In this document: positions 9,502 to 29,407 of the stretch, piece after piece | Layout: each line of letters starts with the position of its first letter | Numbering within the stretch: the stretch's first letter is position 1 | Virus record (IMG/VR): IMGVR_UViG_3300042556_001483 | Location: 1-31,515 of that record | Direction: 5' to 3' (one strand) | Length of the DNA: 31,515 bases | DNA from: a virus | Notes under the pieces: generated by a model | Database searches by the model: none | The model's input: the letters and a program-made list of their open reading frames with translations, nothing else | What the model was told of the DNA's origin: nothing | Position numbers and translations under genes: made by a program

Positions 9502-11150
9502 AGCTTGTCATATCTCCTTTGTTCCCAATAATTTATCATATTTCGTATTTTTAACATGTCGTTATAGGCGTCTTTTGGTTCAAACGACATCATTTGTTTT
9601 CTACCATCAAAAGCGGCAGAACTTTCATTTAAATATAAACCACCTATTGTACCATTTCTATAACCGTATGTCAAGTCTCTGATTAGCCGACTTTCGAAAA
9701 AAGTATTAAGTTTTTCTGGTTGTCCAAGTACATTTAGTATTAACCATTTGGATAGTTCGGCTGGAACAAGTTTTTCAAGTTGTTCTGAATATTCTATAGG
9801 TCTAAATAATTTTGGTTTCGAATACCATGTGTAAGCCTCATTTTTTAATTCTAACGCATCGAAATTGTTCATAAGGTTTTGAGCCGATATATCTATTTTA
9901 TAATGCGAGATAAAGTTTTGGCGCGTTCTATCTTTTAATTCTTGAATATTCTTTATTCTAAAAAACTTTATAAACTCGTCTACAGCTAAATTGTTATCTG
10001 GAACCGCTCTTTCGCAACCAGTTTCAAGTTCTTTATAAAATGTTTTCGGTTCTAATTTTATCCCCTCTATATTTTGAAGTATACTAGTCATAGCAGAATA
10101 ATTTGTGGCGGCTATTGGTATACCACAAGCGGCTGCTTCTACAAGCGGAATACCGAAACCCTCTGAATTAGCATATTGTACATACAAATCCATGGAGTTA
10201 TAAATATTAACCAAATCTTCTAAACTAGCCCCGTTTTTAACCCCACAAATTTGTGCAGACATTTTACCTGTGTCTGGAGATATATTCTTAACACCCTTGT
10301 ATACATCTGCAAATATTCTTCCACTACTAGAACACTTATAAGTAAAAAGAACATTAGAACATACTTTATATTCTTGTAACAATTCTGGTATATCCCAACC
10401 TAAATCTGGAAAACCAGTGTGACAATATAGAAAATATTTAGACTGATCATCTACACTATCTAAAAACATTCTAAAAGCTTTAAATAAATCTGGGAACAAT
10501 TTACGACGCTGATTTCTCATAACCGTTCCTATTATTTTAATATCTTTATCTATACCTAGTTTTTCTCTAGCTTCTAATTGTGATATAGGTTTAAATATTT
10601 CATCTACAGAGGGTGAAGCGGTTCCTACATAATTAATCATATCATTAGATTGTTTTTTTAACACTTCTCCAGCCCATTCTGAATATGAAAAAACTATATC
10701 CGCATCTTTGTACATGTCAATCCAATGTCTAGCTTGTGGATAAGCATCTACAGTAGGCATTAGTGCAAAATTATAGTATTTTCTAAACGGCGAAGATTGT
10801 ATATATGAACACATCCAATAATCACGTATATCATAAATTATGTCAGGTCTAAAATCTAAACACACTTCTTCAAATATAAAAGATCCAAATTGAGATATTG
10901 TATCATTTTGATATCTATCTATTTCTTCTTTATTTGCCACAGGTTCATAATTCATATTTGGCATTACACCATAATATTTCCAAGGAAGATTTAAACCCCT
11001 TGGATCATTTCTTTCTCCGTATGCGGCAAGTTCCGCTAATTCATATTTATTAGTATTTTGTAGATATTCTAACATTCTTCTAGAATAATTAGCGTATCCA
11101 GTATTCAGAAAAGAAGCTTCTGAACAAAAAAGTATTTTGGGTTTTCTCAC
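9489..11150 (-). CDS. Glycosyltransferase family 4 (553 aa), GTG start
   Basis: This is the most complete enzyme of the sugar block. The N-terminal Rossmann half begins KILFCSEASFLNTGYANYSRR (5-25); the interdomain region has IIGTVMRNQRRKLFPDLFKAF (206-226) with the conserved Arg/Lys pair; the donor site is NSEGFGIPLVEAAACGIPIAATN (328-350) with the full E-x7-E (Glu330, Glu338). About 180 extra residues follow the catalytic core, ending in a region of unknown function. The start is GTG, forming a GTGA overlap with the polymerase stop, with AAGGAAA upstream. The overlap puts it on the polymerase transcript. Confidence 0.85.
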   Translation of the reverse strand: MRKPKILFCSEASFLNTGYANYSRRMLEYLQNTNKYELAELAAYGERNDPRGLNLPWKYYGVMPNMNYEPVANKEEIDRYQNDTISQFGSFIFEEVCLDFRPDIIYDIRDYWMCSYIQSSPFRKYYNFALMPTVDAYPQARHWIDMYKDADIVFSYSEWAGEVLKKQSNDMINYVGTASPSVDEIFKPISQLEAREKLGIDKDIKIIGTVMRNQRRKLFPDLFKAFRMFLDSVDDQSKYFLYCHTGFPDLGWDIPELLQEYKVCSNVLFTYKCSSSGRIFADVYKGVKNISPDTGKMSAQICGVKNGASLEDLVNIYNSMDLYVQYANSEGFGIPLVEAAACGIPIAATNYSAMTSILQNIEGIKLEPKTFYKELETGCERAVPDNNLAVDEFIKFFRIKNIQELKDRTRQNFISHYKIDISAQNLMNNFDALELKNEAYTWYSKPKLFRPIEYSEQLEKLVPAELSKWLILNVLGQPEKLNTFFESRLIRDLTYGYRNGTIGGLYLNESSAAFDGRKQMMSFEPKDAYNDMLKIRNMINYWEQRRYDKLCQK

Positions 11151-13132
11151 TCTGTTATTTCCTTTAGTTCATATACTATTAATGATCCATCTTTTACGTC
11201 GCCTGTTAATAAAACATTATTATCTTCAAATAGGGAAAATCTATATTCTTCTTTTGCGTCTGGAAACATAACAACCGAATCTAATTCTCCGGTATCATCC
11301 TTGATAGTTAGAAACGCCATTTCCCTATCTTTATTCTGACCTTCTTTTTTTATTGTATGAAAATTTATTTTAGTAATAGTGCAACAAATTCTAACATTTT
11401 TAAGGTTTGTCGAATTTCCAGCATTTAATATTCTATCGCAAGTAGTTGTTGATAATAATTGCGGCATAGAGTATTTATCTATAGATATTTCACACCCTAA
11501 CAATTCTTTTTCAGTAGATAGTACCCAATTAGGGTCATCTTTATCTAAATCGTATGGGGGCTTTTCTAATAGCATTATTTCATTTAATATAAAATTCATT
11601 CTTCCTATTGTATTAGTGCCACCACCCTCTTTTTTTGTAGGAGACAAGTCTTTGAGACATAATATTAAATCTTTCCAAGTTTTCCCATTTTTTCTTTGCT
11701 CTTTTATCCATAATATTTCCTTGTCATTTATATTTTTGAATATATTATATTCGTAAAGTTTTCTAGTTCTGCTCTCTTTTCCTATATTATCAAAGAAACC
11801 TACAGAGCATAGGGCTTTAAAATTTGTAGATACTATATTTGTAGAAAGATCTATTAATACATCTATCCACGATGGGTTTTTATTGTTTTTTGAGAAATTT
11901 TCTATTTCTAAATTACATTCTTCACCCCTTTTATTTGTTAAACTTTTTATACTTTTAAGTCCGAAATATATAGTATTTGTCTTTCTGTCCATTTTATATA
12001 ATTCACACATATTGAACATATCGCACATTTTTATATTTATACCAAACCCATTTCTAGCTTCAGATATTAATTCATAAACTTCTTCATTTTTATCTTGTTT
12101 TTCGCCAGAATATTCTAAACATGCTGTAAAAAATTCCAAAGGGTAATGATATTTCATATAAGCTGTAGCTAAAGATGTTTTAGCATAAGAATAAGCGTGT
12201 GAATTACTAGTAGCTATACCATTTCCATAAAATAAATGTTCTTTAGAGTCAACTTCTATATCTACAGATCTTTTGATACCAACACTTTTTACACCGATAA
12301 TTCTTTTAGCTTGTTCTTTAGACATTATTTTATGATTATTCTCTAAAATTTCTGATAAAGGTCTTTTTATTGAATCTTCGCACATAAATTCATGATCTAA
12401 AGAGCAGGTTATACTAAAACCATCTTCCAACTCTACTTCATATAACTCTTTATCCCCAGATTCCATAAAATTTAATACTTCTATAAATTTATCACCATCT
12501 TCTGTAGGACAAAGTATTTTTTCTCCGATACTTAATTCGTCCAATGTTTTAATTTCTCCACGATCTGTTTCTACGAATGTATTTGGATCTAAACATGCGT
12601 TAAATTGATATCTAGCACTCTTCTCAATTATATCAAATATTTCTTCGGCTTTTTCTTTAGTTATAACCCCCGTTTTTATACATCCATTTATGAATTCATC
12701 TCTAAGTTTTATCATAAGTGCGGCATCCTTTTTTCCTATACTTTTTCTTAGTCTATCCGCATCTACGCCAGAAAATCCCGCTACTTTTTGAGCTATTTGC
12801 ATACTTTGCTCTTGATACAACATAAGACCAAGAGTATATTCTAATATTTCTTTACAGTTATCATCTATATATACAACTGGTTCTTTATTATGTCTTCTAT
12901 CAACATAATGTTGTGTTATAGATTTGTCATCAATTATAGCCTTAAGCGATCCAGGTCTTAAAATACTTATTAAAGCAGAAAGTTGTTCTAAACTCTCCGG
13001 TTTTAATTTTTTAGACCAATTTTTGCCCAAACTACTTTCTAATTGAAATATGCCCTTTGTTTTACCGTCTGCAAATATATCCCAAACACCTTTTTCGTTT
13101 TCTATATTTTTATTCCACATATAATTTCCCAT
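11147..13132 (-). CDS. dnaE: DNA polymerase III alpha subunit, C-terminal half, with mini-intein
   Basis: This half begins just after the third catalytic Asp of the enzyme. KGIFQLESS (26-34) and ISILRPGSL (55-63) match the GVFQLES and ALYRPGPL motifs of DnaE; YTLGLMLYQEQSMQIAQKVAGFSG and ADRLRKSIGKK (125-135) are fingers motifs; FNA|SHAYSYAKTSLATAYMKYHYP follows, interrupted by an intein at residues 180-310. A C-terminal OB-fold region (RICCTITKINFHTI to the end) binds single-stranded DNA in relatives. Without the intein it is 530 aa; with the N-terminal gene the total is 1029 aa, somewhat short for DnaE. An internal ATG at 13120, with GGGA upstream, is an alternative start. It should form one polymerase with the product of the gene at 14480-15979. 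Confidence 0.9.
   Translation of the reverse strand: MGNYMWNKNIENEKGVWDIFADGKTKGIFQLESSLGKNWSKKLKPESLEQLSALISILRPGSLKAIIDDKSITQHYVDRRHNKEPVVYIDDNCKEILEYTLGLMLYQEQSMQIAQKVAGFSGVDADRLRKSIGKKDAALMIKLRDEFINGCIKTGVITKEKAEEIFDIIEKSARYQFNACLDPNTFVETDRGEIKTLDELSIGEKILCPTEDGDKFIEVLNFMESGDKELYEVELEDGFSITCSLDHEFMCEDSIKRPLSEILENNHKIMSKEQAKRIIGVKSVGIKRSVDIEVDSKEHLFYGNGIATSNSHAYSYAKTSLATAYMKYHYPLEFFTACLEYSGEKQDKNEEVYELISEARNGFGINIKMCDMFNMCELYKMDRKTNTIYFGLKSIKSLTNKRGEECNLEIENFSKNNKNPSWIDVLIDLSTNIVSTNFKALCSVGFFDNIGKESRTRKLYEYNIFKNINDKEILWIKEQRKNGKTWKDLILCLKDLSPTKKEGGGTNTIGRMNFILNEIMLLEKPPYDLDKDDPNWVLSTEKELLGCEISIDKYSMPQLLSTTTCDRILNAGNSTNLKNVRICCTITKINFHTIKKEGQNKDREMAFLTIKDDTGELDSVVMFPDAKEEYRFSLFEDNNVLLTGDVKDGSLIVYELKEITE
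12203..12595 (-). other. Mini-intein (131 aa) in polymerase C-terminal half
   Basis: The insert interrupts the extein sequence FNA/SHAYSYA, which is continuous in DnaE relatives. It starts with Cys (CLDPNTFVETDRG, block A), has a block B-like GFSITCSLDHEF in which Ser replaces the usual Thr of T-x-x-H, and ends VDIEVDSKEHLFYGNGIATSN (blocks F and G) before Ser +1. The penultimate residue is Ser, not His, a known variant. At 131 residues there is no room for a homing endonuclease. The site is two to three residues from the cyanobacterial DnaE split-intein site, which lies before C-F-N-K-S-H, so it is a neighbouring but distinct insertion point. Confidence 0.88.
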
Positions 13133-13790
13133 CTGCGAAAGCCCCAGGCATTTTATTACAAAGTAGTTTTTGATATATTTCCCTCTGTGTTTTAAGAAAT
13201 AGTATCATTATATTTGCCGTATCTTTTACATCTTGTAAAGCGTCGTGAGCATTATTGCTAGATAAACCAGTTATTTCTCTCATTTTATCAAGACTTACAG
13301 ATTTAATATCTGGGTCAGATTCTGTCCAAGAATAAACTATATCAAGTACATCTATTTTAAAGATGGGGCTAAATAAAGTTTGTTTATTATTTTTATATTG
13401 TCCAAATTTTTTACACAATCTATCTATAATAACCATGTCATAGTTTATTATATTATAACCACAAGGTATAGGAGCAAAAAAACTTGTATTATTAAAATTA
13501 TATTTATTTACAAAATCTACAAATTTAGGCCAAACATATTTAATATCTGGTGCTAAAGAAATCTTTTCTCTAGTCTTTCCGGTAATCTTTAAAGCCCCCT
13601 CTTGTACTGGTTCTAAACCTAATTCTATAGCTTTTTCATCATCTGTTTCTGCAAATATCTCAGAGTTGAACGACCCTTTTAGTTTGAACGATCTACCATC
13701 TAAGGCTATAGCCGCAATCTGTGTTAGTTGACATGTATGAGGATTTTTCCCCCCAGTTTCAAAGTCCAAAATTATTAAATCTCTATTCAT
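13110..13790 (-). CDS. dnaQ: DnaQ-like 3'-5' exonuclease (DEDDh), probable proofreader
   Basis: Exo motifs are ordered as in DEDDh nucleases: DLIILDFETGG (4-14) with the D-x-E pair, IPCGYNIINYDMVIID with the second Asp, and NAHDALQDVKDT (residues 184-195) with the His and last Asp. Family members remove mismatched 3' ends. The gene lies between the two polymerase halves and overlaps both flanking genes, and the polymerase PHP domain looks inactive, so this is the likely proofreading subunit. RNase T or other processing roles cannot be excluded. The ribosome binding site is weak. Confidence 0.88.
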   Translation of the reverse strand: MNRDLIILDFETGGKNPHTCQLTQIAAIALDGRSFKLKGSFNSEIFAETDDEKAIELGLEPVQEGALKITGKTREKISLAPDIKYVWPKFVDFVNKYNFNNTSFFAPIPCGYNIINYDMVIIDRLCKKFGQYKNNKQTLFSPIFKIDVLDIVYSWTESDPDIKSVSLDKMREITGLSSNNAHDALQDVKDTANIMILFLKTQREIYQKLLCNKMPGAFADGKLYVE

Positions 13791-14058
13791 TTATAGTTAT
13801 AGATTCCCCCATTCTTTGAATATACCCCCTAAAAATAGTACCTTCGGGTTCACATGAAATATAATCACATATATATATATTTCCATTTATATCATAAAAT
13901 TTATAATCACTCATAGGAGTGTCGATATATAAAAATTTATTTAATGATGCGACAGTAAACTCAAATTTTCCAAATATTTCATCGGGCCAACTTTCTAACC
14001 TAAAATCTATTATAGGTAAGTTTTCTCCATATTTATCGAATATTTCTATTTCTACCAT
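13783..14058 (-). CDS. Hypothetical small protein, paralogue of its upstream neighbour (91 aa)
   Basis: The protein is beta-rich and related to the next gene upstream: IFDKYGENL versus IFDKNGVDL, a following F-x-x-L-S-F-like strand, and YKFYDINGNIYICDYI versus DDLYDINGNVFEVIDI in the same order. The shared D-I-N-G-N turn suggests a small beta-barrel or sandwich. No known family is recognised. Its position between the polymerase halves, overlapping the exonuclease start, hints at a link to replication, but nothing in the sequence shows it. Confidence 0.65.
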   Translation of the reverse strand: MVEIEIFDKYGENLPIIDFRLESWPDEIFGKFEFTVASLNKFLYIDTPMSDYKFYDINGNIYICDYISCEPEGTIFRGYIQRMGESITINE

Positions 14059-14060
14059 TA

Positions 14061-14483
14061 TTAGCTAAAATCTACCCATGAAATGCCAGACGGAGTATAT
14101 GTTATAAACATAGACTTTGCACAATTTAACCACCATTGTTTATAAAAATCTTCATTTATTTCTTCATGTTTACCAATTACTATTGTTATTACATTGCTAT
14201 AATATATTGAACCAGCAATATCTATTACCTCAAAAACATTTCCGTTGATATCATACAAGTCATCATCCAAATATAACTCTTTATTATATAATATATCGAA
14301 ACTTAATCGATTTAAAATTGAAGGTAAATTATTACTTTTTATTGAATATAAATCTACACCATTTTTATCAAAAATTCCAAGATTTATTGATTCTCCATTA
14401 TAAACCGTCTTATTGATTTCTTTTTCCCCCCATGGAGGAATAAATTGTCCAGAATTATATATACCATAAGGTGGTTTTATCAT
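14061..14483 (-). CDS. Hypothetical protein, paralogue of its downstream neighbour (140 aa)
   Basis: The core (GIFDKNGVDLYSI and YDINGNVFEVIDI) matches the smaller downstream gene. It has an extra N-terminal segment rich in Gly, Pro and Tyr (KPPYGIYNSGQFIPPWG) and a C-terminal extension with WW. It could be a structural or protein-binding module. Translation is coupled to the polymerase N-terminal half by ATGA, and its stop lies two bases before the next start. Function is unknown. Confidence 0.65.
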   Translation of the reverse strand: MIKPPYGIYNSGQFIPPWGEKEINKTVYNGESINLGIFDKNGVDLYSIKSNNLPSILNRLSFDILYNKELYLDDDLYDINGNVFEVIDIAGSIYYSNVITIVIGKHEEINEDFYKQWWLNCAKSMFITYTPSGISWVDFS

Positions 14484-15979
14484 ATTCTTATTAACTCTTC
14501 TATTCTCATTAATTTACTTAATACAGAAACCCCCAATATGTCCAGCTTAACTAATGAAATACTTTCCAAATCTCCCATTTCCATTTGTGCTATACCATTT
14601 ATAACTGGACATGATTCTATTATATCATTTTTAGATATTATTATACCCGCCGCATGTGTACCTAAATTTTTAAAAGTACCCTCAAGTCTAATAGCTTTAT
14701 CAAACGCTTCTGCATAATCGCCTGTTAGAGTACCATCTTCTTTTAATTCGCAAAATTGTCCAAGCTTTTCTTTTCTATTTATTAAAGCCCATTTTATTAT
14801 GCTTCTATCTTCCATTTTTTCTAAAGAGTCTGATATAGCGGCTTCATCTGGAATAAATTTTGTCATAGCATTCATTTCTGAAAAACCGCATGAATCGGTT
14901 ACCCTTAAAACTTCTTTAAGAACACTTCTTCCTTGAAGTCTACCAAATGTACATATTTGGGCTACTTTATTCCTTCCATATTTATTTCTTATATACTCTA
15001 TTATAATATCTCTTTTAGAAGAAGGTACGTCTAAGTCTATATCTGGAAGAGATATATTATCCTTTGTATTCCTAGAAGAATTATAAAACCTTTCAAATAA
15101 AAGATTATATTTTATAGGATCTATCTTAGTAATATCCATTAAGTATGATATTAAACAACCGGCAGCAGACCCACGACCACACCCCGTTAAGAATCCTTGA
15201 GAATTACAATACTCAACAATATCAGCAACAATAAGAAAATATCCAAACAAATTAGCCGACTTAATAACATTAAATTCATGATGAAATCTCTCTAAATACA
15301 ATCTTTTATCTTCCTCCGATTTTAAAATTGGGTTTATCTTATTTACCCACCCAATTCTACATATATCTTTTAATAATTCTTCTTCGGTCTTTTCCCCAGC
15401 AAAACTTGGTAATAAGGGTTTTCCAAGTATTTCATAATCCTCGCAATCAATCAATATAGATTCTATAAGATCTGAAGAATCTTCATAATCTGGTAGATTT
15501 AAATCTCTATTAAATATATGTTTATATTCAAAGGGTTTTACATCATTAATTTTTAATTTAAGACCGCTACAAACTGATATTCTATGTATATCTTGGTCCG
15601 AACTATTACAATAGTAATAACCTTTTATAGACCCGTCATTTAAACGAAAATCTTTAAAATTTTTATTTACTTCATTAGAAACACAAATTATATTATCTGT
15701 AGAAGTTTCTATACCACTATGTATTTTTATTAATTCTTTCCATCCAGATTTATTTTTAGCAAAAAGATGCGTATCTTTATCTAAAGACATTCCTAATATA
15801 GGCTTTATTCCAAATTTTTTACATTCTTTATAAAATTCTACACATCCAGAAACAGTTTTTAAATCTGTTATACCACAATATTCATAACCATATTCAAGGC
15901 ATTTTTTAACCAACTCTTTTGGTTTAGAAAATCCATATTGTAAACTATAGTGTGTAAAATTAACTAGTGGTGCAAACAT
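14480..15979 (-). CDS. dnaE: DNA polymerase III alpha subunit, N-terminal half
   Basis: The first part (1-190) is a reduced PHP domain in which the metal-binding His pair (H-x-H in active PHP domains) is replaced; only LVNFTHYSL remains, with later GITDL and FKDF-like remnants. The palm follows: GCGRGSAAGCLISYL (266-280), SLPDIDLDVPSSKRD (310-324) with Asp313 and Asp315, and LVKLDILGVSVLSKL (476-490) with Asp480, the equivalents of E. coli Asp401, Asp403 and Asp555. The protein stops at residue 499, before the thumb/fingers link that opens the other gene. All three catalytic Asp are thus in this half and the fingers and OB fold in the other. AGGAG precedes the ATG, which directly follows the previous TAA. 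Confidence 0.92.
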   Translation of the reverse strand: MFAPLVNFTHYSLQYGFSKPKELVKKCLEYGYEYCGITDLKTVSGCVEFYKECKKFGIKPILGMSLDKDTHLFAKNKSGWKELIKIHSGIETSTDNIICVSNEVNKNFKDFRLNDGSIKGYYYCNSSDQDIHRISVCSGLKLKINDVKPFEYKHIFNRDLNLPDYEDSSDLIESILIDCEDYEILGKPLLPSFAGEKTEEELLKDICRIGWVNKINPILKSEEDKRLYLERFHHEFNVIKSANLFGYFLIVADIVEYCNSQGFLTGCGRGSAAGCLISYLMDITKIDPIKYNLLFERFYNSSRNTKDNISLPDIDLDVPSSKRDIIIEYIRNKYGRNKVAQICTFGRLQGRSVLKEVLRVTDSCGFSEMNAMTKFIPDEAAISDSLEKMEDRSIIKWALINRKEKLGQFCELKEDGTLTGDYAEAFDKAIRLEGTFKNLGTHAAGIIISKNDIIESCPVINGIAQMEMGDLESISLVKLDILGVSVLSKLMRIEELIRI

Positions 15980-25933: not shown

Positions 25934-28900
25934 CTATATTTTTGATATATTACATCCATCTTTACCACTACAAGCCATAGCTGCATAATTAGACACATCT
26001 TTATATTCAGGTTTTTTAAGAATTTCCTGAAAATTTATATCTTTCATTTCTCTAGTAATATTTTCCCATTTATGACATAAATGAACATCTTTTAAACAAT
26101 AAACGGTTTCTTTAAGATCACCTTTAAAATAATTTTTTGCAAATTTTTTAGCCCTTTGTAGCCAATATTTTTTAAGCATAACTTGTTCTCTAGTGCCAAA
26201 TATCTGCATATCTGTATGGATTAGATAATCACAAGCTTCCCACAGGTTATTGTTAAAATAATGTAAACCGTCTACAATTAAACCAGAAACAAACAAAGCT
26301 CCTTTACCGTATTTTTCAAAAATTTCTTCCACATTTAAAACTGACGTAAATGGCGCTTGATTAAAATCTTTATCCCCGTAATCGGATATAAAACTTACAG
26401 CAGTAAACGAATCCTTGTTATCCCAAATATAATCTATAACACTTTGTTTGTCGTCTAAAATTACAGTGGCAGAAATATTATGATTAATCTTTGGCGATAT
26501 CCCGCATTCCTGTCTGGTCCCTGGTATTACCCAATTTTCTTGCGCAAATTTTATCAATTCTAAATGTTTTACCCCTTTTATAGTGTCTTTAAACACCCCA
26601 TTAGTCGGATTAACCACTGGAACAAATATAACATAATCTACCCCATTAGCTGACCAAACACTTTCTTCTAACAAATATGGACAGTTCTCTATCAAATATT
26701 TAGCAACATCACTAGATTTATTAATTTGCATTATACGAAAATATCTCATAGAATGTTCTGGGTGAAATCCTGATGAAGTTTGAGCTATAACACTTAAATT
26801 ACCTTCCGGCTTAACACAGGTTGTTCTGGCCGCTTTATTTATACCAAGTTTAGTAGCAAGCTTTTCATTGATTTCAAGTATTACTTTAACGCCATCTTTA
26901 AGCCAATCAGAGTTAAGTATTTTTGGGTTATTCATCCATCCAGTAATAGATGTTCCTAATAAAGACTCTCTCTTTGTTATTTCTTCTGACTTATCTTTAA
27001 AATATGGAAAATTAGTATAACCGGCCTGTAGCGTTCCTAATATAGCCTCGTCTTTACAAGCTCTAAGAAAATCTTCTTTATTTTTTATTTTTTCGGCATT
27101 CATTGATGTAAGATTACACACTTGTACGCCAAACATATCACTATTATCTTTTATAAAGTCTGGCAACTCTTCGTATGTTATTTGCGTCAAATCTTTATCT
27201 GTAAGTATTGGAGTGAACTGAATTTCCGCGCATCTAGCGGCAGTTATACCATTAGCTATAAGAGTCCTATTATTATTTTCTTCTAAGCAATAAACATCTT
27301 CGTTTTCAACCTGTGTTATAGACTTTACAATTGACCAACCACAGACCGGTTTTGTTATAACGCTTAAATCAAGCATATTTCTTAATTTATCTTTTTTATC
27401 ATCTTCTAAAAGAAGAATTTTACTTAGCAAATTTTTGCATTGAATTTGTCCATTGATAACAAGTCTAAACGAATCTTTGCATAAATAATATTTTGGATTT
27501 CTATTGGTATCAGGAAGCTTTTTATATCCACCACTTGCCATATTATATAATCTTGGTATATATCCTAAATCTTGTAATATTAATGATAAGTCTTGGAGAA
27601 TTGTTTTATTAGATTGAGAGATTCTAACAGACAAAGTTTTGTTTTTTACTCCATATTCTACGCTTCCGTCAGTATGAATCATTCCTGAAATAAAACCAGA
27701 TTGAAAATCCTTATCTTTATTAAATAAAAATTTTACACTTGATTTATTTTCCATATCAAAAGTGTTTAAAAGTTTTTTTAATCCAGTAGATTGTAACGTG
27801 TATTTAATATATGATCCTACTTGTTTTTGTAATCTAAATGATAAATCGCTTTTTAAAGGCTTATAACCACTTGATTTTATTTGATTATTTTTAATAGCAT
27901 TATCTAAAACATCTTTAAAGATATCTTCTACTTGGTTTAGTAACTTGTTATTATTATCATTATCCTCTTTAAACCAAAATGATATACCGGCCTGATCATC
28001 AGTTTTAAAACCATCTCCAAAAACCAATCCGGCTATAAACCCATTTTTAAATTCTATAGAATTTTTATTTGGATTATAAAGATCGTTATGCGATATAAGT
28101 AATTTATCTTTGCCAATGATTAAATCCTTAGCTTCGACGGTTTTTCCATCATAAGTGAAAAATTTGTGATTTTTTGTACACTTTACCGATCTTCCGCAAG
28201 ATGTTTCAATTTCTAGTATTTCGACGTTTTTACCAGTTATTCCAACTTTACCAATTTTATTAATTAATAATCCATTTTGACCATTATCAACATTCCATTG
28301 TTCTATATTATTAACCATGTCACCAGAAACCCTTTTATCTTGATAAATAAATATATCTTTACCAGATTTTTGAATTTCAACCATTTCTTTAAATGTTTTC
28401 CAACCGTTGGTAGTTAATACCTTTGTATCACCAGTGAAACACGGATTAAACATATCAAACCAGCTATTACCAAATATAAACCCTATATCATTATCACCAT
28501 TATTTAAATTAACTATTTCTTCAAACTGCTCTTTAGAGACTAAATTCCTTAATAGTAATACAGAATTATTACTTCTAGCTCTTTGTGGATTCTCGTTTCT
28601 CCAATTACCAGTTTTGGCATATATCATTTCTTTATCATGTGGATCAACAACCATTAAAAGTGCTGATCTGCGAACACCACCTGATAATATACAGTCTGAT
28701 ATATGACATATAATATCAAAAATGTGAATAGGTTTTAATTTATGTATACCTCTATCAATTAGCGTATCTAAAAATTTTTCAATTTTTTCTAACGAATTTT
28801 TTAATGGCTCTGGTCCTGGTGCTTTAAATCCGCCACTTATAAAAGTTTCCTTTGCTCTAATTAACGAATAATCAAATCTTATTTTACAATTAGAATATTC

Positions 28901-29407
28901 TGGAAATGGTTGATTGTCCGCTAAATAAGAACTCATTAATACACCAAAAGCATCTGCCCAACCCTCAATACTATCTTCTATTACAAAGGTTTTTGTTCCA
29001 TCTTCCCTAGCTTTAATACTAGATATATTATCAACAAATGGTTTTAACAAACTAACACCAACGCCGCATCCATTAATAAGTAGATAACAAGTATTTTGAA
29101 ACACATTGTTGTTTACGGCGTGTAAAACCGAGCAATTAAAAAGTCTTAAACTACTTCTTTTCACTTGTGGATATCTAAATTGAAGATTTCTCTGACTAGC
29201 GAAAACCCTCATTTCTTTCATAGATTCTAAAGCGGAGGTTAATTCTTCCTCGATATCTATTCCTTGGTATTTTTGCCTATGACCATTAATAATATCTTCA
29301 CAAGCCTCTTCCCATGTTTCGTATCTATTTAAATCTTCTCTCCATTTTAAATAATCTGAATGCAATTTTATATCTGAAAGTAATTTTTTACCATTTATTT
29401 TCTTCAT
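25934..29407 (-). CDS. nrdJ: Class II (cobalamin-dependent) ribonucleotide reductase, monomeric type, with intein
   Basis: Without the intein the protein is 754 aa, like the monomeric RTPR of Lactobacillus. Cys92 (RLFNC), GCGVGVS (114-120), SGGVRRSA (242-249), N-P | CAEI (Asn321, Cys726, Glu728 of the precursor), VQVCNLTSMN (Cys764), and the C-terminal C-S-G-K-D-G-C pair (Cys1146, Cys1152) match the reducing pair, radical Cys, catalytic Asn/Glu and the shuttle cysteines. It makes deoxynucleotides with adenosylcobalamin and does not need a second subunit. The ATG at 29407 is chosen over a TTG at 29428: GGAG lies five bases before it and the earlier frame runs into the terminator. The intein spans residues 323-725. 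Confidence 0.93.
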   Translation of the reverse strand: MKKINGKKLLSDIKLHSDYLKWREDLNRYETWEEACEDIINGHRQKYQGIDIEEELTSALESMKEMRVFASQRNLQFRYPQVKRSSLRLFNCSVLHAVNNNVFQNTCYLLINGCGVGVSLLKPFVDNISSIKAREDGTKTFVIEDSIEGWADAFGVLMSSYLADNQPFPEYSNCKIRFDYSLIRAKETFISGGFKAPGPEPLKNSLEKIEKFLDTLIDRGIHKLKPIHIFDIICHISDCILSGGVRRSALLMVVDPHDKEMIYAKTGNWRNENPQRARSNNSVLLLRNLVSKEQFEEIVNLNNGDNDIGFIFGNSWFDMFNPCFTGDTKVLTTNGWKTFKEMVEIQKSGKDIFIYQDKRVSGDMVNNIEQWNVDNGQNGLLINKIGKVGITGKNVEILEIETSCGRSVKCTKNHKFFTYDGKTVEAKDLIIGKDKLLISHNDLYNPNKNSIEFKNGFIAGLVFGDGFKTDDQAGISFWFKEDNDNNNKLLNQVEDIFKDVLDNAIKNNQIKSSGYKPLKSDLSFRLQKQVGSYIKYTLQSTGLKKLLNTFDMENKSSVKFLFNKDKDFQSGFISGMIHTDGSVEYGVKNKTLSVRISQSNKTILQDLSLILQDLGYIPRLYNMASGGYKKLPDTNRNPKYYLCKDSFRLVINGQIQCKNLLSKILLLEDDKKDKLRNMLDLSVITKPVCGWSIVKSITQVENEDVYCLEENNNRTLIANGITAARCAEIQFTPILTDKDLTQITYEELPDFIKDNSDMFGVQVCNLTSMNAEKIKNKEDFLRACKDEAILGTLQAGYTNFPYFKDKSEEITKRESLLGTSITGWMNNPKILNSDWLKDGVKVILEINEKLATKLGINKAARTTCVKPEGNLSVIAQTSSGFHPEHSMRYFRIMQINKSSDVAKYLIENCPYLLEESVWSANGVDYVIFVPVVNPTNGVFKDTIKGVKHLELIKFAQENWVIPGTRQECGISPKINHNISATVILDDKQSVIDYIWDNKDSFTAVSFISDYGDKDFNQAPFTSVLNVEEIFEKYGKGALFVSGLIVDGLHYFNNNLWEACDYLIHTDMQIFGTREQVMLKKYWLQRAKKFAKNYFKGDLKETVYCLKDVHLCHKWENITREMKDINFQEILKKPEYKDVSNYAAMACSGKDGCNISKI
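27233..28441 (-). other. Large intein (403 aa) with LAGLIDADG endonuclease, non-canonical last residue
   Basis: The insert starts with Cys (CFTGDTKVLTTNGWKTF, block A) directly after N-P of the extein, has block B at RSVKCTKNHKFF with Thr89 and His92 of the intein, and the two LAGLIDADG helices FIAGLVFGDG (135-144) and FISGMIHTDG (250-259), both with the catalytic Asp. It ends in VENEDVYCLEENNNRTLIANGITAAR (block F/G) before CAEI. In a normal intein the last residue is Asn; here it is Arg (AGA) with Ala before it, aligned by the preceding NGI to the N of the polymerase intein. The +1 residue is the radical Cys of the reductase. Splicing by the standard route therefore looks impaired. Confidence 0.88.

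Follow-up and report, generated by a model that had tools for sequence, protein, structure and literature searches.

Completion of protein splicing is usually taught as a third step in which the C-terminal Asn of the intein cyclises, Gln, Asp or Glu taking its place only rarely. An intein that ends in none of these raises the question of how, if at all, it could be released from its host protein. Such an intein interrupts a ribonucleotide reductase (RNR) gene in IMG/VR virus record IMGVR_UViG_3300042556_001483, whose positions 1 to 31,515 (31,515 nucleotides, hereafter the window) we analyzed; its last residue is Arg. It looks as if this Arg end is a working, previously undescribed way to finish splicing. 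We favor the reading that the element is a functional, mobile intein with the layout of class 1 and that its final step would have been rebuilt around Arg, most likely by way of a lactam (probability about 0.42).

The reductase gene and its intein boundary

The interrupted open reading frame (ORF) codes for an adenosylcobalamin-type ribonucleoside-triphosphate reductase (RTPR-type), matching TIGR02505 with a score under the curated cut-off of that model. The cysteines of the active site, in all three of their contexts, and the pair of cysteines at the C-terminus are intact. A relative that has no intein (L004) reads ...SWFDMFNP/CAEIQFTP... without any insert (here and below, the slash marks a splice junction or insertion point). 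Because L004 reads directly through FNP/CAEI, the intein boundary is exact at both ends. Compared with this allele, the N-extein of the window aligns without gaps at 90% identity, while the C-extein is 86% identical (dN/dS 0.09). The final seven intein codons are AAT GGT ATA ACT GCC GCT AGA (27253-27233), that is NGITAAR, followed by TGC for Cys+1. The initial annotation had described an intein ending in Arg (AGA) preceded by Ala and a spliced product of 754 aa. The codons and the L004 boundary confirm the former, and the latter agrees with 322 aa from the ATG at 29407 plus 432 aa. Its reference for the alignment, a DnaE mini-intein in the same window, does end in Asn with equal spacing after NGI.

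Other parts of the element have the appearance of an intact homing intein (Table 1). Block B residues T92 and H95 (numbering of the flanked sequence) are invariant in 45/45 aligned sequences, and the two LAGLIDADG motifs, GFIAGLVFGDG and GFISGMIHTDG, both keep the catalytic Asp. The AlphaFold model of the intein has a mean pLDDT of 90, and its best Foldseek matches in PDB are the endonuclease-bearing inteins TliVMA and PI-PfuI.

Table 1. Positions of the reductase, its intein and the DnaE mini-intein in the window.
Feature	Position	Strand	Remarks
RNR ORF	start 29428 (TTG) or 29407 (ATG), to 25934	-	
N-extein, 322 aa	28442..29407	-	from ATG 29407 (TTG 29428 possible); ends ...WFDMFNP; TIGR02505
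Intein, 403 aa	27233..28441	-	CFTGDTKV...NGITAAR; Hint splicing domain (PF14890, 4.5e-13) and LAGLIDADG endonuclease (PF14528, 3e-13)
C-extein, 432 aa	25937..27232	-	CAEIQFTP...; stop 25934-25936
Cys1 (TGT)	28439..28441	-	first nucleophile, block A; invariant across all aligned relatives
Block B TxxH (TKNH)	28166..28177	-	T and H unchanged in all 45 aligned sequences
First LAGLIDADG motif	28007..28042	-	GFIAGLVFGDGF; catalytic Asp retained in Arg-ended relatives
Second LAGLIDADG motif	27662..27697	-	GFISGMIHTDGS; Asp retained in Arg-ended relatives
Block F	27251..27301	-	EDVYCLEENNNRTLIAN; stretch with the strongest conservation in the Arg-ended group; Cys at F:4
Arg392 (F:13)	27266..27268	-	usual seat of the step-3 His; Arg in 6/6 Arg-ended inteins
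Arg403 (AGA)	27233..27235	-	last intein residue, replaces Asn; AGA, AGG or CGA in relatives
Cys+1 (TGC)	27230..27232	-	splicing nucleophile; by homology, thiyl-radical cysteine of the reductase
DnaE mini-intein (comparison)	12203..12595	-	ends NGIATSN/S

Conservation of the Arg end and the probable need for splicing

Relatives were gathered by a scan with the C-extein and by scans with intein alignments and patterns. Besides the window, Arg-ended inteins occupy the same RNR site in five further divergent lineages, where they end in GITAAR (L018 and its near copies L070 and L072), GITARR (L082), GMTARR (L173 and L258) and GITMRR (L174). The Arg-ended lineages are 27-49% identical to each other and reside in widely different reductases; the contigs of L082, L018 and L258 are 194, 169 and 104 kb long. 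The terminal Arg codon is AGA in most of them, AGG in L173 and CGA in L174. A scan of viral contigs with the single intein sequence returned one weak match only, the plasmid scan one match, and megablast of the window against phages nothing. No Arg-ended relative was present among the inspected matches in genome contigs or in the sampled phage matches. The exact DNA pattern for NGITAARC also matched unrelated contigs, which we discarded as other contexts.

These relatives leave a negligible chance that the Arg is an artefact, be it a sequencing error, a wrong boundary or a reassigned AGA codon. The window is indeed a single metagenomic contig, but sequencing error is ruled out by independent contigs that share the Arg end and encode it by AGG and CGA besides AGA. 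The five additional lineages thus uphold, on broader grounds, the initial view that a read error could not account for the residue. A wrong boundary is ruled out by the intein-free allele of L004; the Asn- and Gln-ended cousins, too, share the same boundary instead of revealing a different one that ends in Asn. As for reassignment, AGA encodes the conserved second Arg of GGVRRSA in the RNR ORF, which rules it out, and is the main Arg codon of this ORF (28/37 Arg codons). Translation is normal in these phages, since other inteins on the contigs with Arg-ended inteins end in HN and the DnaE mini-intein of the window in SN.

The conservation pattern is most pronounced at the intein C-terminus. 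The tails of the window and L018 inteins have 21/21 residues in common while 11 of the codons differ, the overall identity being about 46%. Across the six Arg-ended sequences, invariant columns make up 12/23 of the last columns compared to 55/372 overall (p=1.3e-5). Position F:13, mostly His or Gly in cousins, is Arg in all six. The usual His at G:6 is absent, this position being Ala or Arg, and Ala or Met occupies G:5. The Thr that almost every Asn- or Gln-ended cousin has at G:5 stands at G:4 in the Arg-ended group. Comparison of the L018-group contigs gives dN/dS values of 0.02-0.10 for the N-extein, intein and C-extein, wherever the differences sufficed for an estimate. The dS value is higher for the N-extein (0.70) than for the intein and C-extein (0.24-0.41). 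This suggests a transfer of the intein by homing that postdates the divergence of the exteins. Therefore, the C-extein provides the cleaner dN/dS value. Both dN/dS and the conservation of the tail disfavor a decaying pseudogene. Judged from these sequences, the Arg-ended inteins are a selected variant among the class 1 inteins of phage RNRs, and the terminal Arg is neither an error nor a product of decay.

The insertion site indicates what failure to splice would cost. All the inteins studied are inserted at N[PL]/C.E, except those of L251 (QL/C) and L185 (shifted by one residue). In a class I relative, the site cysteine is aligned with C429 of human RNR1 and C439 of E. coli R1, which we take to be the RNR radical cysteine. 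Since Cys+1 aligns with this residue, the precursor, or a branched intermediate with acylated sulphur, would be expected to lack activity. The contigs with Arg-ended inteins, which are possibly incomplete, yielded no second RNR large subunit. Enzyme function thus probably requires the intein to splice, and we consider it likely, from the sequences, that it does so functionally.

These observations make it distinctly improbable that the intein is dead or capable of cleavage only, with the reductase either broken or working as pieces. Such an outcome might be expected, as none of the usual step-3 residues (F:13 His, G:6 His and G:7 Asn) is present and normal inteins mutated at the Asn no longer cleave at the C-terminus (PMC4031507). 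However, Arg has been retained in six lineages under low dN/dS and by means of synonymous codons, the RNR cysteines and the LAGLIDADG motifs are intact, and the insert adjoins the radical cysteine of what appears to be the only RNR found on the contigs. The initial annotation had considered that the last step might be unusual, that the intein might be inactive, or that it might be a decayed copy tolerated by its gene. Only the first fits the Arg conserved in six divergent inteins with synonymous codons, the strong purifying selection on intein and exteins and the failure to find a second RNR on those contigs; the other two do not.

The same gene has also received other inteins. In L185, the offset intein (SNMC/CVTGD...ITHN/SEIL) has as its +1 residue the Ser that follows the catalytic cysteine, not Cys. 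Near relatives of the window phage, L005 and L062, carry at the same RNR site a different type of intein that ends in VHN, so more than one intein lineage has invaded this site. In L080 and L081, a second intein region of the RNR gene, of the fractured split type, lies some 350 bases and more beyond the Arg-ended intein. It is 99-100% identical between the two, compared to about 84-98% for the rest of RNR, which points to very recent homing.

Possible routes through the last step

With blocks A and B intact, Cys1 would form the thioester and the N-extein would be passed to Cys+1 as in normal inteins. A side-chain nitrogen of Arg403 would then attack the carbonyl of the same residue, breaking the Arg403-Cys+1 bond and leaving a six-membered delta-lactam where an Asn would give a succinimide. 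The other conserved Arg (F:13) would assist by lowering the pKa of Arg403 or by stabilizing the transition state. Finally, the freed amine of Cys+1 would take over the N-extein by an S-N shift, restoring FNP-CAEI with a free catalytic cysteine. Lactam formation as the last splicing step is a tentative assignment, if the foremost one. Somewhat more tentative still is the general proposition that a natural intein family ends splicing by cyclisation of Arg to a lactam, both usual His residues and the Asn having been replaced.

We know of no intein or other protein for which an Arg-lactam step 3 has been described. There are partial precedents. Published accounts of step 3 describe cyclisation of Asn, or of Gln, Asp or Glu, and Gln-ended inteins do splice (PMC4031507). 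In peptide synthesis, Arg is known to form the delta-lactam as a side reaction of its activated esters (PMC3597280). In the open-access papers covered by the search we found no published Arg-terminal intein.

Several points weigh against a functional intein that closes an Arg lactam. Every Arg-ended member is found at one RNR site and in metagenomic contigs, and the N-extein dN/dS of L079 versus L081 may partly be older than the acquisition of the intein. Guanidinium groups usually carry a proton and are weak nucleophiles, and the Arg-Cys bond to be cleaved is an unactivated amide.

Alternatively, the intein might splice with the Arg-Cys bond hydrolyzed instead of cyclised, Arg403 and Arg392 serving as catalysts or as an oxyanion hole for water or another side chain before the S-N shift ligates the exteins. 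The same conservation of Arg speaks for hydrolysis as for the lactam. Moreover, two invariant Arg residues together with the loss of both step-3 His suggest a remodeled site, and the shift of Thr from G:5 of the cousins to G:4 indicates a different geometry. Nevertheless, we regard hydrolysis as unlikely, because inteins would here hydrolyze a peptide bond with no side chain cyclising, which would be a reaction new to them, and because published descriptions of step 3 in inteins ending in Asn, Gln or Asp speak of cyclisation (PMC4031507).

Splicing might also be conditional, halting at the branched intermediate until a trypsin-like protease of the phage or the host cuts after the terminal Arg and the S-N shift ligates the exteins. 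Breaking the Arg-Cys bond by any means would permit ligation, and the sole strictly kept feature of the extreme end is an Arg at the would-be P1 position (AAR, ARR, MRR). However, few bacterial cytosolic proteases cut after Arg in folded proteins, and the conservation of block F extends well past a protease site. Nor do the six loci with Arg-ended inteins share any linked helper or protease gene beside RNR; the genes near RNR in the window also flank the intein-free allele of L004. Consequently, a protease trigger seems distinctly improbable, less so than an artefact but more so than hydrolysis.

A conserved Arg end cannot follow Asn-type chemistry, and it would therefore imply either a new guanidine-based cleavage of the peptide bond, as in the lactam route, or a new external trigger of splicing. 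From either outcome, if true, intein engineering would gain a new kind of cleavage at the C-terminus.

Origin of the Arg end and comparison with known inteins

The cousins at the same RNR site fall into two kinds. Asn-ended ones include the SPbeta intein (VTGN) and many inteins of metagenomic class I RNRs (ITHN, ITSN, KTFN). Gln-ended ones come from ICP1, Vibrio helene, Rheinheimera barba, Curvibacter, Pectobacterium and Staphylococcus phages, and from L175, L177 and L231. In a tree computed without the intein tail, five Arg members form one clade (support 100/100), and a six-member clade including L174 is not rejected (p-AU 0.36), so that one or two origins of the Arg ending are possible. A route from Gln to Arg is plausible, because the Gln codons CAA/CAG, used by the Gln-ended cousins, are one base away from CGA/CGG and both side chains would close a six-membered ring. 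Asn, Gln and Arg ends at a single RNR site thus constitute a natural series on the replacement of a catalytic residue. Gln-ended inteins are common at this site in isolate phages (L248, L251, L252, L253, L255, L256, L257), which makes them a ready set for studying Gln-type splicing.

Elsewhere in the window, DNA polymerase III alpha (11147-15979) is split over two ORFs, 14480-15979 and 11147-13132, that match adjoining parts of the family profile. Between them lie two small ORFs and one that is exonuclease-like (13110-13790). Its DnaE mini-intein is contiguous. On the contig of L004, the homologous N-half (L242) is closed by a stop, after which comes an endonuclease-like ORF, an arrangement that resembles fractured split-intein genes.

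Among known systems, a close parallel to the Arg-ended intein is offered by the Gln-ended RNR inteins of Chilo iridescent virus (RIR1) and of Vibrio phage ICP1 (nrdA) and related phages, which likewise have a non-Asn end whose nitrogen would close a six-membered ring. The phage representatives share the class 1 layout with Cys1 and +1 Cys, and ICP1 and its kin also the N[PL]/C.E site. They differ in having His or Gly at F:13, Thr at G:5 and a final Gln, whereas the window intein has Arg at F:13, Thr at G:4 and a final Arg. The SPbeta bnrdE intein (Bacillus phage) and the Asn-ended phage RNR inteins have the same site, LAGLIDADG and about 25% identity over most of the length, but they end in VTGN or ITHN and keep the F:13 His.

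Cys at F:4 of block F is common to the Arg-ended group and class 3 (WCT) inteins. However, class 3 is defined by the absence of a position-1 nucleophile and by Thr at G:5, whereas the Arg-ended group has Cys1 and Ala or Met at G:5. Bacterial intein-like (BIL) domains, which have neither a conserved +1 nucleophile nor a homing endonuclease, resemble the window intein in being Hint domains without the usual C-terminal residue, but this identity is disfavored by the conserved +1 Cys, the LAGLIDADG domain (3e-13), the insertion in an active site and the empty-site allele. The element has what is expected of an intein, namely a Hint fold and an in-frame position at a conserved site that is empty in a close relative (L004, exteins 86-90% identical). 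With class 1 it shares Cys1, an invariant Cys+1 and the block B TxxH; it departs from that class in lacking Asn (or Gln, Asp, Glu) at G:7 and His at F:13 and G:6, which are usual but not universal. It is therefore best described as an Arg-terminal class 1 RNR intein, possibly with a new chemistry.
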